47,028 nt of DNA, taken from a virus. Each line of letters opens with the position of its first letter. Position 1 is the stretch's first letter. Shown piece by piece: positions 261 to 40,557 of the stretch. The stretch covers positions 1-47,028 of the IMG/VR virus record IMGVR_UViG_3300029811_000150, one strand, 5' to 3'. The notes beneath the pieces were generated by a model that was not told the origin of the DNA, did not search any database, and was given only the letters and a program-made list of their open reading frames with translations. Both the position numbers and the translations under genes were made by a program.

Positions 261-281
261 AAGTCAACTATTGACCTTTCT
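261..281 (+). repeat. Dispersed palindrome copy 1
   Basis: Core GTCAActaTTGACCTTTCT. It lies immediately inside the TTTGTTATTTG tract of the left terminal repeat. The right arm is the conserved TTGACCTTTCT; the left arm is AAAAGTCAA. Confidence 0.8.
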
Positions 282-374: not shown

Positions 375-399
375 AGTAATCACAAATAGAGTGCCTTGC
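375..399. repeat. 25-bp inverted repeat A, 3' arm
   Basis: This matches the reverse complement of 808-832 at 23 of 25 positions. It starts 12 nt beyond the stop codon of the leftward gene 412-783. The partner arm is 24 nt upstream of that gene's ATG, so the pair precisely encloses one gene and its ribosome binding site. Confidence 0.85.
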
Positions 400-411
400 C
401 GGTTAAAGTTA

Positions 412-783
412 TTATTTAAGTCCTAATTTTTCCAGGAGTGCCAACTCAATCTCACTCAGTCCACCAGCCGCTACTAACTTGGCGGCTTCTTTCTTAACGG
501 AAGTCTTTTCCTTTGCAGGAGTCTTCCATATTCCTTTCACCAGGGATTCATACCGCTCAGTCATAACCTTAACTTTCTCCTTCATGGTATAATCTTTCAT
601 CCCTGCAATCTTATCGCTAAGATTTTGTTTGAATCCGTAGGTAACTAATCCTCTCTGAACTTCAGTCATCTTCTCAATCTCTGGGAAGAGCATCGTTAGA
701 TCATAGGTATCAAGGATAGTATTCTCAAAGCCTATCTGGATAGTACCTTCTAAGTAGGTCCACTTAATTCTTTCTTGTGCCAT
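412..783 (-). CDS. Small phage protein, paralogue of the 40038-40397 product
   Basis: This 123-residue protein has no recognised enzyme motif. ATG at 783 is chosen because AAGGAG lies just upstream. Its central and C-terminal parts resemble the product of 40038-40397: a YD..LFP/YD..LPP segment, then YGFKQNLSDKIAG against FGLSHRIGDAAAG, then LVKGIW against LVDGNW, with both ending LLEKLGL. The two genes lie near opposite genome ends. It is probably expressed early from the tandem leftward promoters at 1150-1252. A 25-bp inverted repeat encloses it. Function is unknown; a small soluble DNA-associated or regulatory protein is only a guess. Confidence 0.75.
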   Translation of the reverse strand: MAQERIKWTYLEGTIQIGFENTILDTYDLTMLFPEIEKMTEVQRGLVTYGFKQNLSDKIAGMKDYTMKEKVKVMTERYESLVKGIWKTPAKEKTSVKKEAAKLVAAGGLSEIELALLEKLGLK

Positions 784-807
784 GATATTGCTCCTTATTT
801 TGCAATA

Positions 808-832
808 GCAAGGCAATCTATTTGTGACTACT
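808..832. repeat. 25-bp inverted repeat A, 5' arm
   Basis: Partner of 375-399 (23/25 complementary). It sits just upstream of the Shine-Dalgarno of the leftward gene 412-783. In the leftward RNA the arms could pair into a panhandle closing the whole gene. Confidence 0.85.
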
Positions 833-841
833 TTGTTCTAT

Positions 842-866
842 AACACAGTCTCTATAATAACACTCC
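842..866. repeat. 25-bp inverted repeat B, 3' arm
   Basis: AACACAGTCTCTATAATAAC begins this arm. It matches the reverse complement of 1065-1089 at 23 of 25 positions and lies 7 nt past the stop of the leftward gene 874-1041. Its sequence is unrelated to inverted repeat A. Confidence 0.85.
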
Positions 867-873
867 TTTTTAG

Positions 874-1041
874 TTAGTCTATTGGTTTATCTAAAGGTTC
901 ATAGAATTGAGTCCAACCGTGAATGGTGTATCCATTCAGGGTAGTTATCCGTTGGACATTGGTGTTATAGGTACTTGTTGTAAGACCATGACCATAGGCC
1001 CTTGCTATTTCCAGTTTAATCTCCTGTGTTAACTCTTTCAT
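874..1041 (-). CDS. Hypothetical 55-residue protein in an inverted-repeat cassette
   Basis: ATG at 1041 is preceded by AGGAG at good spacing, which favours it over upstream codons. The product starts MKELTQEIKLEIARAYGHG and ends YEPLDKPID; no family is recognised. It is mixed-charge and soluble, with no membrane segment. It is the first gene downstream of the two tandem leftward promoters and is enclosed by 25-bp inverted repeat B (842-866 / 1065-1089), the same arrangement as its downstream neighbour. Coding status rests on the start context and cassette placement. Confidence 0.6.
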   Translation of the reverse strand: MKELTQEIKLEIARAYGHGLTTSTYNTNVQRITTLNGYTIHGWTQFYEPLDKPID

Positions 1042-1064
1042 GATAACTCTCCTATTTGTATAAT

Positions 1065-1089
1065 GGAGTGCTATCATAGAGACTGTGTT
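1065..1089. repeat. 25-bp inverted repeat B, 5' arm
   Basis: Partner of 842-866 (23/25). It lies 23 nt upstream of the ATG of the leftward gene 874-1041, mirroring the position of repeat A relative to its gene. Confidence 0.85.
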
Positions 1090-1149
1090 CCGTTATGTAG
1101 TTGGTCGTGACCAACGTTGTCAATGAACAAATGTTTCAATGTTAAATAC

Positions 1150-31529: not shown

Positions 31530-32009
31530 TTAATAACATTCTCGTGATACAATTCGACTTACCATAGATTGAGTTATCTTAAACATCTTTCCTATAAAGT
31601 GCTGTGGAAATCTTCCAGCCAGTCTTCGAATTAACCATATTTCTCCAGATTTAAGCTTCCCACTGTGGCCTTTGGTCTGCAACCCAGTTCTCCATGCATG
31701 AAGAGCATTGTAGCTTCGAGTGCAATATTCTAGATTATCGTGACAATTGTCTTGCTTGTTACCATTTTTATGATTTGTTTCTGTTAAACCTTCTGGAGCA
31801 GGTCCTGTAAAAGTTCTCAAGACCAAATAATGCATAGCAATCTTCCAGGCTTCCTTGACGCCAAAATAAAGATTTATGTAGAAGTATCCATTAGTATCAA
31901 CAAAAGGCTTTAATAGGATACCTTTTCGTCTGATATTTCCTTTATTGGATACTTCATAATCATATACATTCCTAAAAGGTAAGAATTTCCATAATTCTTC
32001 TATAGCCAT
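31530..32009 (-). CDS. HNH endonuclease with NUMOD4-type N-terminus
   Basis: ATG at 32009 is 10 nt inside the 3' end of the polymerase gene. The 159-residue product has a NUMOD4-like start (EELWKFLPFRNVYDYEVSNKG), an HNH core (ETNHKNGNKQDNCHDNLEYC) and a C-terminal helix-turn-helix (SGEIWLIRRLAGRF, MFKITQSMVSRIV). This is the architecture of phage free-standing homing endonucleases. It sits directly downstream of the polymerase and overlaps it by 10 nt. Confidence 0.87.
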   Translation of the reverse strand: MAIEELWKFLPFRNVYDYEVSNKGNIRRKGILLKPFVDTNGYFYINLYFGVKEAWKIAMHYLVLRTFTGPAPEGLTETNHKNGNKQDNCHDNLEYCTRSYNALHAWRTGLQTKGHSGKLKSGEIWLIRRLAGRFPQHFIGKMFKITQSMVSRIVSRECY

Positions 32010-34315
32010 GAGATATCTTGCTCCTTCATTTCTCCCCAATTATCGCCAACACAGAAACTTACATCTATCTTCATAGTTTCCCTACCAACTGGAACTTCCT
32101 TAATCATTATCTTCCTTAGCTCCTTCATTATATCTATAGTCTCACTGTGATGAACAAGAGAATAGATTGCATCATGCAATTGAAGATATATTCTGATATC
32201 ATTTCCTAATTTATCATAAGTCTCTCTCAGAGATATATTTAAGAGTTCCCCAATAGAGGACTGTGGAATATAAGCATAAGCGCTCCTGAATAAAGAGTCT
32301 CCCCATCTATCTAGAAACTTATGTTTCCTTCCAAAGAGGTTAATCATAGTTCTATCTTGCCTAAGCTGCATCTGGATTCTCTTATGCCAGATAGGAAGGA
32401 GATGGTTCTTCTGGAAATATAATTTTAAGAGGGGTTTAGCTTGAGCCATAGAAATATCAAGTTTATTAGCAAGGACTCCAGGGCCGCTTGCATAATTGCT
32501 TGCATGGCGCATGGTTTTCCCTATTGTTCTTTGTTCCTTAGTTACTTCCTCCAAGGGAATATCATACATGAGAGCAGCAGTATATCTATGAACGTCGTAA
32601 CCTTTAGCCCGTTCAGAACCAGACATTCCAAAGGCATCCTTGAAAAGCTTCATCAAGACTGTATCTAAGCAGAGATAGGCTACTGCAACTGCCTCAGCCT
32701 GAATATAATCTGCCTCTAGTAGAACGTATCCCTTAGGAACAGTATAGAGAGTCCTAGCTTCCTTAGGAATATTCTGTAGATTGCCTGGACCATAGGAAAG
32801 TATAATTGATTTAGAGGAGGACCACCTTCCTCCAAAACCTGTTCCTGTTACATTATAAGAAGAATGAACTCTATTCTCAGGGGACACTGAAATATCAAGG
32901 AAGGTGGATATAAGTTTAGATGCTTTTCTTCTCTTTATGATAAAAGCTGGAACTTCATGCATCCTCGCTAACTTTTTAAGGGCATCCTCTCCTGTAGTAA
33001 GCTTCTGCTTCTCACGAATACTCTTTCTCCTTTTATATTGAGGAGGTAATTCAAGATCTATATAGAGGAGATTCTTAACTTGAGCAGGACTGTTATAGTT
33101 TACTTCTTTGCCCACCAACTTTAGGAGTTCTGCATCTACTTCTTTTAGATTCTTTTTTGCTTCTACAACTAACTCCTCTTTCTTCTTCATATCAACGAAG
33201 AGTCCTTGGAGTTGAAGCATAGAGGCTGGCTCAATCCAAGACATCTCCCTTTGAAAGGTCTCCCAGAGATCTCTCTTCTTCAGTAACTTCTCCATAATAG
33301 GAGCAATACACTTTGTGTTGAGAGCATCTAGAGCGTTATATTCTCCTGGAGCAGTCTCAGAAAGATGCTTCCATGCTGGTACATCGAGGAGAATACTTGT
33401 TACATACTCTAGACTCTTTGGAAGTTCTGGCCACAGATTATGAGCGGCCACTAAAGTATCCATATAGAGATTATAAGTGGGGATTCCGTTCCTTAGAAAG
33501 AGAACTGACAAATCATAAGTGGCATTGTGGTAGATAATTGGGAGTTCTGAAATAACTCTTCCTATCCACTCCCAGATTTCTAGCTCATCTCTTTCAGGAA
33601 ATAGAGGAACCTTTCCCTTTAAAGTGCCAAGGGTGAATGCCCAGACAGGAGAGTTAGAAAAACCTATTCTATTGATATGAGCCTGAACGGCTTCTATATC
33701 CACAGCGACAGGCTCCTTTTCATCCAGGAGACGCTGGCATAACTCTATGAAATTAGCTTTAGTTGGGTCAATTATAAGTTGGCGTCTATCTTCTGGAATG
33801 TCTGGAAAGCCAGAATGATATAGAGCCTTTTTCAGGTCCATCACTACTGTAGTAGCAAGACTCCAATCGTAGCCTACTGCTTGAGGATGATAACTGGGAA
33901 CCAGCTTTTGTCCTGGAACTAGAGTAGAGGTAGTGACTGATCCTCTAGCATGCTTTATTCCTTTCCTTCCAGTCAATGCCCAAAGAGCAGTATTGCCCAT
34001 TGCTACAACAACATTAGGCCTGTATGTTTCTATCTCTTTCTTTAAAGTAGCTATATATTCGAGCATCCTGGGAGTTGGTATCTTGCAGCCTTTATCTACA
34101 AAATAATGCTTCATGTCGTTTCCAGGTGCTTTTTCACGAGCAACATTGGCTATTAAACATTGTGACCTTATAATACCTGCTTGAGAAAGAAGAGTATTTA
34201 AGGTATTCCCAGCTTTTCCGACGAAAGGCTTACCTGTTCTATCCTCTTCAATCCCTGGAGCTTCTCCAAGTAGCATGATATCAGCGGTAACTGGTCCGGA
34301 GGTTTTCACATGCAT
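32000..34315 (-). CDS. Family A DNA polymerase fused to an N-terminal uracil-DNA glycosylase-like domain
   Basis: The 771-residue replicative polymerase has three parts. Residues 1-170 are UDG-superfamily: GEAPGIEEDRTGKPFVGKAG (17-36) and SYHPQAV (141-147). The N-terminal Cys pair and CRP-type Cys of iron-sulfur UDGs are absent. About 200-340 is a 3'-5' exonuclease with D206/E208, N264/D268 and Y326/D330. The polymerase follows, with motif A LEADYIQAEAV (D536), O-helix RTIGKTMRHASNY (R596, K600, His604, Y608) and motif C QLHDAIYSL (HDA, not HDE). The UDG-PolA fusion resembles SPO1-type polymerases. His occupies the site equivalent to E. coli Pol I Phe762. Endonuclease genes overlap both ends. 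Confidence 0.92.
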   Translation of the reverse strand: MHVKTSGPVTADIMLLGEAPGIEEDRTGKPFVGKAGNTLNTLLSQAGIIRSQCLIANVAREKAPGNDMKHYFVDKGCKIPTPRMLEYIATLKKEIETYRPNVVVAMGNTALWALTGRKGIKHARGSVTTSTLVPGQKLVPSYHPQAVGYDWSLATTVVMDLKKALYHSGFPDIPEDRRQLIIDPTKANFIELCQRLLDEKEPVAVDIEAVQAHINRIGFSNSPVWAFTLGTLKGKVPLFPERDELEIWEWIGRVISELPIIYHNATYDLSVLFLRNGIPTYNLYMDTLVAAHNLWPELPKSLEYVTSILLDVPAWKHLSETAPGEYNALDALNTKCIAPIMEKLLKKRDLWETFQREMSWIEPASMLQLQGLFVDMKKKEELVVEAKKNLKEVDAELLKLVGKEVNYNSPAQVKNLLYIDLELPPQYKRRKSIREKQKLTTGEDALKKLARMHEVPAFIIKRRKASKLISTFLDISVSPENRVHSSYNVTGTGFGGRWSSSKSIILSYGPGNLQNIPKEARTLYTVPKGYVLLEADYIQAEAVAVAYLCLDTVLMKLFKDAFGMSGSERAKGYDVHRYTAALMYDIPLEEVTKEQRTIGKTMRHASNYASGPGVLANKLDISMAQAKPLLKLYFQKNHLLPIWHKRIQMQLRQDRTMINLFGRKHKFLDRWGDSLFRSAYAYIPQSSIGELLNISLRETYDKLGNDIRIYLQLHDAIYSLVHHSETIDIMKELRKIMIKEVPVGRETMKIDVSFCVGDNWGEMKEQDISWL

Positions 34316-34761
34316 GCTGTTTCCCCTTCCCCAGGAAAATTCAGAGCAGCAAATTCACCATAACTTATTCTGGAGACTTGCCCAAAAATATCTTCCACTC
34401 TTATTCTTGCTTGCCATTTTTTTGAGTTTTTATGCCATGTTATTCCTTTATATTTTGATTTTCCTTTTCTACTTTTACTGTTAGCACTGTTTTCTCTGTC
34501 AGAGCATACTCGTAAATTATATTTTTGATTATCAAGTGTGTCTTTATTTTTATGATCTACAATTTTACCTTTAGGAAAGTTCATTATAAAACGAGCTAAA
34601 TAAATCACTGCCTTATTATTAGAATAATCTATTCTTCTAGCGTAAAAACTTTTTGTAACTGAACTCCATTGAGCATGCCAGTTATATTGATTTACTCTCT
34701 CAAAATCTTCATCATCTACTAAAGCGAACTTTTTTTGTGTGAGGGAAATTCTTTTCATCAT
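34306..34761 (-). CDS. HNH endonuclease with shortened AP2 domain
   Basis: This 151-residue relative of 28656-29147 shares LTQKKFALVDDEDFE, the LARFIMNFPKGKIVDHKN HNH core and KYKGITWHKNSKKWQARIR. Compared with its relative it lacks about 20 residues of the AP2 domain between VSRIS and YGEFAALNFP. DNA binding may therefore be impaired, as in a decaying homing gene. The ATG overlaps the methyltransferase stop and its end overlaps the polymerase start by 10 nt. Its 3' end supplies the GGGGAAGGGG ribosome binding site of the polymerase. Confidence 0.85.
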   Translation of the reverse strand: MMKRISLTQKKFALVDDEDFERVNQYNWHAQWSSVTKSFYARRIDYSNNKAVIYLARFIMNFPKGKIVDHKNKDTLDNQKYNLRVCSDRENSANSKSRKGKSKYKGITWHKNSKKWQARIRVEDIFGQVSRISYGEFAALNFPGEGETACM

Positions 34762-36062
34762 TCTCCCTTCAAATATTCAGCAATTCTTTTATTAGCTGTA
34801 TTATAAGCCTCTACCTTTTCGTCACATCCTCTAACAATTAGCTTTTGGCTTAACCCAGCCTCTAAAGCAGCGCCACTACCAGTAAATGGATCATAGAGTT
34901 TCTGGCCTGGAAGAGAAACTCTTCTAAGAAGTTTTTTCAAAAGAGAAACTGGCTTTTCAGTAGGATGAATCCTTTTACTCTCTAGAACAGGATCCTCTTG
35001 AATCCAGTCAGGCATCCCTTGTACCACCAACTTTGAAGTAGCCTTTCTACAATAAAGGATCATTTCATAGCAAGAGGAAGGCCATCTTTCTGGCATATTA
35101 CATTGACCAGATTCTCGTTTAATCCAAATCATAGGCTTGATATATGCATCCCAACCAGCCTCAATCATCATTCCCCTTATAAGAGAAAAGAATTCTGGTG
35201 CAACGAATATATAAGCATGAGCACTTTCAGTAGTAAAGCGATAGGACTCCCCTGCAAGAGTTTTATAAAGAGCTAGAGCTTTCTCTGTAGAGTCATCAAA
35301 TTTATATCCACTCGTAGAGAAACCTCCAGTTGAATTGCCAATAGAAGTAGCTATCTTATCTATCTCTATTCCGTATGGAGGATCTGTTAGGAGAATATCT
35401 ATAGATTTATCTTCTTGCTCCTTCATATCAATGGAAGCTTCCTTGAGCAGGAGCTCAACTTTACTTTCCTTTTCAAGAAGAACTTCCCATTCCTGAACTG
35501 CCAAGGCATGATCGACAACTTGTTGGCAACCCTTTACTGCTTTCTTTATAGCTTTTTGTGTCTTGAGCGAGCGAAGCTCAGGGAAGTCCTTTAGTGCAGC
35601 AGAGATAGCAATATTATCTATGACAGTTCCCTTTGACTTTCCTATTGCCTCGGCTGTATCACTTAGCTTCCAGCCTCCCTCCCTTCCACTTGAAGTTTCT
35701 CCATAGAGTTTTTGCTTCAACTCATGAAGATCTGCAATAGCATCTGCTTCGTCGGCAGGAGAGAGGTCCTCCCTTTGAAGATTTTCCTCTAGCTCAATCT
35801 CTCTCATCTGGATTGGAGTTAGATTTCCCTTATACATACATCTTACATTGATGCCACCAAGTAGGCAAGCTGCTAACCTTCTCCCACCAGCAACGAGTTC
35901 TAACTTTTCCGTCACTATAATGGGGTGGAGTTGCTTCTTCTCAAGGATAGATGCAAGTAACTCCTTTACTTTTTTGGAGTCCCTTCTATAACGAGGGAGG
36001 TCTTCGTGGACTACTATATTTTGAGGAGGAGAATAAAAGATTTTATCTTCGTCTATAATCAT
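34758..36062 (-). CDS. ParB-domain / DNA methyltransferase fusion
   Basis: The 434-residue product has an N-terminal ParB/Srx-like nuclease-type domain (residues 1-115, with LVAGGRRLAAC and ELEENLQREDL) and a KorB/ParB-type HTH (WKLSDTAEAIGKSKGTVIDNI). A C-terminal N6-adenine/N4-cytosine methyltransferase domain follows, with DPPYG (227-231) before HPTEKP (366-371) and DPFTGSG (391-397), the order of the beta class. Such fusions are frequent in phages and probably target methylation that protects phage DNA. Upstream lies a structured gap flanked by dispersed palindromes. Confidence 0.9.
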   Translation of the reverse strand: MIIDEDKIFYSPPQNIVVHEDLPRYRRDSKKVKELLASILEKKQLHPIIVTEKLELVAGGRRLAACLLGGINVRCMYKGNLTPIQMREIELEENLQREDLSPADEADAIADLHELKQKLYGETSSGREGGWKLSDTAEAIGKSKGTVIDNIAISAALKDFPELRSLKTQKAIKKAVKGCQQVVDHALAVQEWEVLLEKESKVELLLKEASIDMKEQEDKSIDILLTDPPYGIEIDKIATSIGNSTGGFSTSGYKFDDSTEKALALYKTLAGESYRFTTESAHAYIFVAPEFFSLIRGMMIEAGWDAYIKPMIWIKRESGQCNMPERWPSSCYEMILYCRKATSKLVVQGMPDWIQEDPVLESKRIHPTEKPVSLLKKLLRRVSLPGQKLYDPFTGSGAALEAGLSQKLIVRGCDEKVEAYNTANKRIAEYLKGE

Positions 36063-40037: not shown

Positions 40038-40397
40038 CTACAGGGACAATCCCAGCTTCTCCAGGAGGGCCTTTGCAGCTGCTTGCTCCTTCGGATTCAT
40101 CTGGTCAATCTTGTCAGTGAGGCCCTTCTTGGTGAGCTTCTCACCGGCGGGAGCACGGACAGTCCAATTTCCATCTACCAGACCCTTCCAAACCTTATCC
40201 ATTGCATCGACTGCTTCTTTTCCCTTCTTACCAGCAGCGGCATCGCCAATTCTGTGGGATAAGCCAAAGGGACCGAACTTAGTCTGAATGTCAGGGGGGA
40301 GCTTAGCAAAGTCGTAACTCCTATCCTGGTTACTTTCAATCTCTTTAATCTTAAGGATTGTTCCTTCAATCACTTTTGTCATACGCTTTGCTGCCAT
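40038..40397 (-). CDS. Small phage protein, paralogue of 412-783
   Basis: ATG at 40397 follows AAAGGAG; the upstream TTG at 40421 lacks such support. The product of about 119 residues begins MAAKRMTKVIEGTILKIKEIE and contains YDFAKLPPDIQTKFGPFGLSHRIGDAAAG, cut here into its recognisable parts YDFAKLPPDIQ and FGLSHRIGDAAAG. It has GLVDGNWTVRAPAG and ends KALLEKLGLSL. The pattern is recurrent in phage genomes but unnamed. The gene near the left end is a diverged copy. It is expressed from the promoter at 40564-40592 together with the ribbon-helix-helix gene. Confidence 0.72.
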   Translation of the reverse strand: MAAKRMTKVIEGTILKIKEIESNQDRSYDFAKLPPDIQTKFGPFGLSHRIGDAAAGKKGKEAVDAMDKVWKGLVDGNWTVRAPAGEKLTKKGLTDKIDQMNPKEQAAAKALLEKLGLSL

Positions 40398-40557
40398 TTT
40401 TACTACTCCTTTGGGGAGCAAGGCTCCCTTGTGTTAGGTGATTATCTAGAGCTAGTCGAACCAACTCTGACATTGAAATTGCTGCTTTTGCAGCAGCTAT
40501 CTTGAGAACTTGTTTATACCCTTTCGGTAAGACTATATGAAAGTGCTCCATGATCAT
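40366..40557 (-). CDS. Ribbon-helix-helix DNA-binding protein, leaderless mRNA
   Basis: The 63-residue product has the Arc/CopG layout: a beta strand HFHIVLP followed by two helices (YKQVLKIAAAKAAISMSELVRLALDNHL). It should bind DNA as a dimer and act as a repressor. The consensus promoter -10 (40564-40569) places the transcript start at the A of the ATG (40557). No ribosome binding site is present, so translation would be leaderless, like lambda cI from PRM. Its 3' end overlaps the next gene by 32 nt. Confidence 0.68.
   Translation of the reverse strand: MIMEHFHIVLPKGYKQVLKIAAAKAAISMSELVRLALDNHLTQGSLAPQRSSKNGSKAYDKSD

Follow-up and report, generated by a model that had tools for sequence, protein, structure and literature searches.

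Gene-enclosing RNA panhandles in the early region of a phage group and their possible likeness to pre-rRNA leader–trailer helices

In the window (the whole stretch of DNA that was analysed, 47,028 bp, which makes up an entire IMG/VR record), two small adjacent genes are each enclosed by an inverted repeat of their own, and sequence comparisons leave very little doubt that such repeats form RNA panhandles that are real and maintained by selection. By analogy with ribosomal RNA, we lean towards the view that the early operon is built like a pre-rRNA operon, with a boxA-tethered RNA polymerase, looped-out cistrons and leader–trailer helices. The first-pass annotation of this DNA, which described the two repeats, missed their recurrence in a phage group, the abutment of neighbouring helices and the frequent presence of a boxA-like element in the leader.

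Two panhandles at the left end of the window

Gene 1 (412–783, read from 783 to 412; 123 aa) and gene 2 (874–1041, read from 1041 to 874; 55 aa) are both minus-strand ORFs preceded by a Shine–Dalgarno (SD) sequence, and their leftward mRNA is probably an early transcript. Gene 1 encodes a conserved terminase-adjacent phage protein (P1) with homologues in related phages, while the product of gene 2 (P2) has no detectable relatives. No match to either gene was found among known families, with zero matches to P1 or P2 in Pfam and PHROGs. The AlphaFold2 model of the gene 1 product is confident (pLDDT 88), and fold searches with it against PDB and BFVD gave nothing significant, the best VIA-align match (Z 3.6) being meaningless. 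Rfam gave nothing at the gathering threshold in nine relatives and nothing credible in positions 1–1700 of the window.

Both repeats reported by the first-pass annotation, at 375–399/808–832 and 842–866/1065–1089, were found at these positions. The former is 92 % complementary, and the latter can be extended to 842–872/1059–1089, where 31 nt are 87 % complementary. Three of the four arm differences in the 25-nt cores become G.U pairs on the minus strand, the fourth being a U.C mismatch. In the mRNA, the gene 1 panhandle would be closed by a 5′ arm at 807–832 and a 3′ arm at 375–400 (minus strand), and the gene 2 panhandle by a 5′ arm at 1059–1089 and a 3′ arm at 842–872 (minus strand). The latter arm ends 9 nt ahead of the next 5′ arm, which predicts a single-stranded link of 9 nt between the helices (833–841, minus strand). 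The arms of the two genes have no sequence in common, as had been claimed, and the geometry described as identical proved to be similar instead: the 5′ arm lies 23 nt from the ATG of gene 1 and 17–23 nt from that of gene 2, depending on helix extension, and the 3′ arm begins 11–12 nt and 1–7 nt, respectively, past the stop codon.

Helices were scored on the minus strand, G.U on the coding strand counting as a pair. Those of gene 2 (score 59) and gene 1 (score 54) were the top two of the whole strand, the next scoring 40; the best helix from 36 dinucleotide-shuffled versions of the genome reached 50. Among the 117 ORFs of the window with an SD-like sequence, both panhandles also stood far above the rest, the next score being 35 once the same repeat read in antisense is set aside. 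Both the minimum-energy and the centroid structure predicted for the RNA from 1095 to 370 (minus strand) have the two stems closed (z −9.25, 20 shuffles), and the stem of gene 2 is likewise closed when its RNA (1095–838) is folded alone (z −6.5, 200 shuffles).

Relatives of gene 1

Neither gene 1 nor gene 2, used directly as a query, brought up relatives among viral contigs or isolated phages, and a query with the DNA polymerase gave no result; relatives were reached only via terminase searches, which supplied 72 and then 56 metagenomic loci, together with an alignment of the gene 1 subgroup. The window encodes a family A DNA polymerase whose N-terminal part is a uracil-DNA-glycosylase domain (32000–34315, minus strand; PF03167 and PF00476) and a ParB-like N-terminal domain fused to a DNA methyltransferase (34758–36062, minus strand), and the large terminase of three relatives (L051, L057 and L065) carries an intein-like sequence (ending ...DGNHLYVLGDFTVxxN before TGKD) at its Walker A motif.

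The gene 1 homologues of metagenomic phages are usually divergently oriented and lie just upstream of the terminase genes. The single cellular relative lies on a Desulfobacterales MAG contig, and a gene 1 profile run against 389 genomes of the class of that MAG matched only the MAG itself. A second, distant paralogue of gene 1 is present in most complete records; copies lie elsewhere in the minus-strand region in the window (40038–40421, minus strand) and in L110–L114. This paralogue has a helix score at background level and no panhandle, and thus serves as an internal control.

Recurrence of the helix

The terminase-adjacent gene 1 lies inside its own helix of 24–40 bp, with a contig-specific sequence, in 23 contigs (the window and 22 others). 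The curated set comprises 31 helices in these 23 contigs, with a median length of 28 nt and loops of approximately 190–680 nt; a borderline helix of 16 bp (L056) was omitted. The 5′ arm is mostly located 14–40 nt ahead of the ATG and the 3′ arm 1–42 nt past the stop codon. The ribosome-binding site is not occluded, the SD sequence being in the loop and the 5′ arm ending at least 14 nt ahead of the ATG at annotated starts.

An unbiased scan covered 1804 SD-preceded ORFs from all loci, for each of which the best helix was sought between positions −90 to −8 and the region from the stop codon to +80. The median score was 20 and the 90th percentile 26, and approximately 30 ORFs scored at least 42, almost all of them being the terminase-adjacent gene 1 or genes immediately next to it in the operon. 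The control phages T7, lambda, vir555 and MW202711 gave maxima of 33–36, and GC-rich phiM5 contained one helix at 50. Six terminase-adjacent relatives (L013, L014, L016, L017, L019 and L106) have no helix. Two further candidates (L015 and L011) scored above background but were kept out of the panhandle set, their matches being AT-rich or long and noisy.

A much larger hairpin, whose arms of 57–90 nt consist of simple GTAACGGTAAC-like direct repeats, was observed downstream of the panhandle genes in many relatives (L161:5178–5479, L166:4746–5016, L169:8910–8646, L171:422–153, L123:1068–755 and L168:10842–10580), and may represent an origin, an iteron region or a packaging region. Its counterpart in the window may be the inverted repeat of poly-A and poly-T at the end of the contig (18–112). 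The G run at the contig start (1–14), which is followed by poly-A, probably arose as an artefact of assembly or sequencing at a break of low complexity.

Selection on pairing

The first-pass annotation had suggested a panhandle mRNA under selection on pairing, a suggestion borne out by relatives that retain the helix with different sequences. Thirteen alignable gene 1 arms, anchored by hand at their outer ends, formed the covariation set. In these helices 95.6 % of cells are paired, a figure biased upward since the arms were extracted as helices. The search for compensatory changes that had been proposed revealed two-sided changes at 19 of 26 pairs. Covariation reached 0.589, compared with 0.252±0.021 for shuffled and 0.10–0.16 for slid alignments. 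Moreover, in one close pair of relatives (L022 and L040, 84 % identical) compensated changes occur at both ends of the helix. Neither the two-sided changes nor the compensation in this pair is accounted for by the extraction bias.

The second line of evidence is strand-specific. Arm differences are compatible with G.U pairing in 71 cases on the coding strand and in 17 on the opposite strand (p=2.6e-9), the helices having been detected with a strand-neutral score; an earlier, smaller count gave 57 and 19. DNA-level explanations do not predict such a bias. Together with the compensatory changes, it shows that the helices are selected as RNA, and it disfavours DNA cassettes. The fold, the covariation and the G.U bias all identify the structure as 5′–3′ UTR pairing within one mRNA.

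Tandem helices

A neighbouring gene with its own helix was found in eight contigs (gene 2 of the window, L158, L161, L164, L166, L169, L171 and L123). Among the neighbour genes that were compared, a set that excludes the one in L123, L105_b and L107_b are homologous (E 4e-8) and the rest are unrelated. Abutting helices occur in six contigs, the link being 9 nt long in the window and 1, 4, 3, 5 and 1 nt long in the others, and the sequences of abutting helices are unrelated to each other.

Units consisting of a gene and its helix are present in some relatives and absent from others. In L007, gene 1 and an ORF of 68 aa share one loop, which implies that the arrangement of one gene per loop is not absolute. 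The helix around them is homologous to that of L006, and the arms have therefore remained paired through the gain or loss of approximately 235 nt.

The leader

The region ahead of the first helix frequently contains a motif resembling the boxA of rRNA operons, with examples such as GCTCTTTGAAAATTT (L162), GTTCTTTGACAAT (L160, L169 and L006) and GTTCTTTAACAATTGAATA (L145). The 13-mer GYTCTTTRAMAAT occurs exactly in 7 of the 23 leaders and nowhere in 514 kb of the same contigs, a partly circular statistic, as the motif was read from these leaders themselves. Two other versions of the motif served as independent checks. The core TCTTTRAMA precedes the first helix in 12 of the 23 leaders, where 0.19 would be expected, and is missing from the other 11. 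The published consensus GYTCTTTAANA is gammaproteobacterial (PMC5725501). With at most one mismatch it matches eight leaders, compared with 0.58 expected. In the class of the Desulfobacterales MAG, a boxA-like element was present in all 17 testable 16S leaders, 85–154 nt ahead of the 16S sequence, as GATCTTTGAAAA in 16 and GCTCTTTAACAA in one. In the phage leaders, the distance from boxA to the 5′ arm varies from 2 to 85 nt.

The candidate element of the window, GTTCATTGACAAC (1116–1128, minus strand), is weak, and its assignment as boxA is tentative because it has two mismatches to the leader motif, which is exact in seven relatives. It is directly followed by the palindrome GTTGGTCACGACCAAC (1100–1115, minus strand), a putative boxB-like hairpin or operator, and preceded by two promoter-like copies of TTGACA-N17-TACAGT (proximal, 1150–1178; distal, 1224–1252; both minus strand); these assignments are based on sequence motifs. 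A separate observation concerns the repeated motif GTCAA-N3-TTGACCTTTCT, with a palindromic GTCAAnnnTTGAC core, which is operator-like and intergenic and occurs around the early region of the window (263–281, 343–362 and 1451–1470) as well as in L011, L015, L019 and L053.

Proposed mechanism and alternatives

We propose that each repeat supplies both strands of an RNA helix in the leftward (minus-strand) mRNA, and that this helix closes a loop containing one cistron with its ribosome-binding site and stop codon. RNA polymerase would start at the promoters near 1150–1252 and transcribe the boxA-like element, at which a Nus-type complex could be recruited and keep the 5′ arm close to the RNA exit channel. 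With the cistron looped out, the emerging 3′ arm would pair with the 5′ arm in a helix of approximately 25–30 bp, which may be cut by RNase III or may merely shield both ends. Every small early gene would thereby become a separate, end-protected mRNA with its SD sequence free in the loop. The helix is the solid part of this scheme, while the processing steps, as well as the early timing, are what we infer. In the model described for E. coli pre-16S RNA, a boxA that is bound to RNA polymerase retains the 5′ strand, and the leader–trailer helix forms once the trailer has emerged (PMC10250234). The order of elements in these phages (boxA, 5′ arm, cistron, 3′ arm, and so on again) matches this scheme.

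An RNA panhandle without rRNA-like processing, which we regard as rather unlikely, would bring terminating ribosomes near the start codon or shield the ends from RNases, the boxA-like element then being one of ordinary antitermination. The position of the helix just outside the SD sequence and the stop codon is consistent with such a role, as is the B. subtilis hbs mRNA, which is protected by 14 nt of 5′–3′ UTR pairing (PMC7821165). However, abutting helices with links of 1–9 nt and a boxA in the leader are what processing predicts, and the closed-loop version is weakened by the two ORFs inside the L007 loop.

Autoregulation, in which the gene 1 protein or another phage protein would bind its own panhandle and control translation or decay, seems considerably less probable. 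Gene 1 is the commonest enclosed gene and its distant paralogue has no helix, as this explanation would have it, but the mostly unrelated neighbours possess unrelated helices of their own, so that no sequence-specific binder fits all of them, and the gene 1 model has no clear fold match.

The first-pass annotation had also offered modular cassettes, and single-gene cassettes or invertible segments whose inverted repeats are read by a recombinase or transposase would be compatible with small, mostly unrelated genes and with gene-plus-helix units that come and go among relatives. In this weak sense of units gained and lost the proposal stands; as a DNA mechanism it is largely refuted, and we consider it highly improbable, as the arms are common neither to different cassettes nor to most lineages and the coding-strand G.U bias is invisible to DNA. 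In addition, the units contain no recombinase (none was matched for P1 and P2 in Pfam and PHROGs or for six neighbour genes), target duplication was not seen, and orientation is constant in all 23 contigs. Finally, operator pairs for protein binding, in whose favour the arms of one subgroup have the motif TTCATGCCTTCCAT in common, or an effect of chance or AT composition may be dismissed as having a negligible probability, since scores are far above those of shuffles and control phages, the inner half of the arms in that subgroup covaries freely yet stays paired, and the compensatory changes refute both.

Relation to known systems

The resemblance to pre-rRNA leader–trailer helices and boxA antitermination (rrnTAC) lies in a long-range helix of approximately 25–45 bp around each RNA of a polycistron (27–44 bp in E. 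coli rRNA), in tandem units with different helix sequences, in pairing that is kept despite variable sequence, and in a leader boxA, for which the phages have a candidate in some of their leaders (PMC10250234). The phage helices differ in enclosing protein genes within loops of the size given above, in that the boxA-like element accompanies some of them only and at a variable distance, and in that their processing is putative. Because protein genes are enclosed, they resemble pre-rRNA processing helices and are not members of that family.

The pairing of both untranslated ends of one mRNA is also known from S. aureus icaR and B. subtilis hbs, which are single mRNAs with short pairings, that of icaR blocking the ribosome-binding site with UCCCC (PMC7821165). 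The phage panhandles belong broadly to this class of mRNAs with 5′–3′ UTR pairing, although their helices are longer (24–40 bp), leave the SD sequence free, covary, recur and occur in tandem.

The early mRNA of T7 is processed by RNase III at local hairpins between genes. The early polycistron described here may similarly be cut into separate mRNAs at double-stranded RNA, but no helix around a gene turned up when T7 was scanned (maximum 35). The lambda nut site (boxA and boxB, N antitermination) offers another parallel, a phage early leader with a boxA-like element and, in the window, a small palindrome after it; the phage motif, however, is of the rrn type, no N-like protein stood out, and boxB is not consistent in relatives, the palindrome being confined to the window. 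The open-access literature yielded no precedent for a phage panhandle mRNA or for rRNA-like phage leaders, although such absence is not proven.

Significance

Long-range 5′–3′ pairing of bacterial mRNA has so far been represented by single cases with short helices. In these phages it takes the form of a conserved, tandem architecture that covaries and encloses protein-coding genes, and it may be linked to the machinery of rRNA antitermination. Whether the early mRNA of this phage group is a mimic of pre-rRNA, which co-opts host Nus factors and RNase III to obtain monocistronic mRNAs, is in our judgement evenly balanced. The system provides a compact natural test of whether boxA/Nus tethering promotes the formation of long-range helices while RNA is being transcribed, in a setting that ribosome assembly does not complicate, and it may point to a design rule by which stable monocistronic mRNAs are cut from a polycistron.
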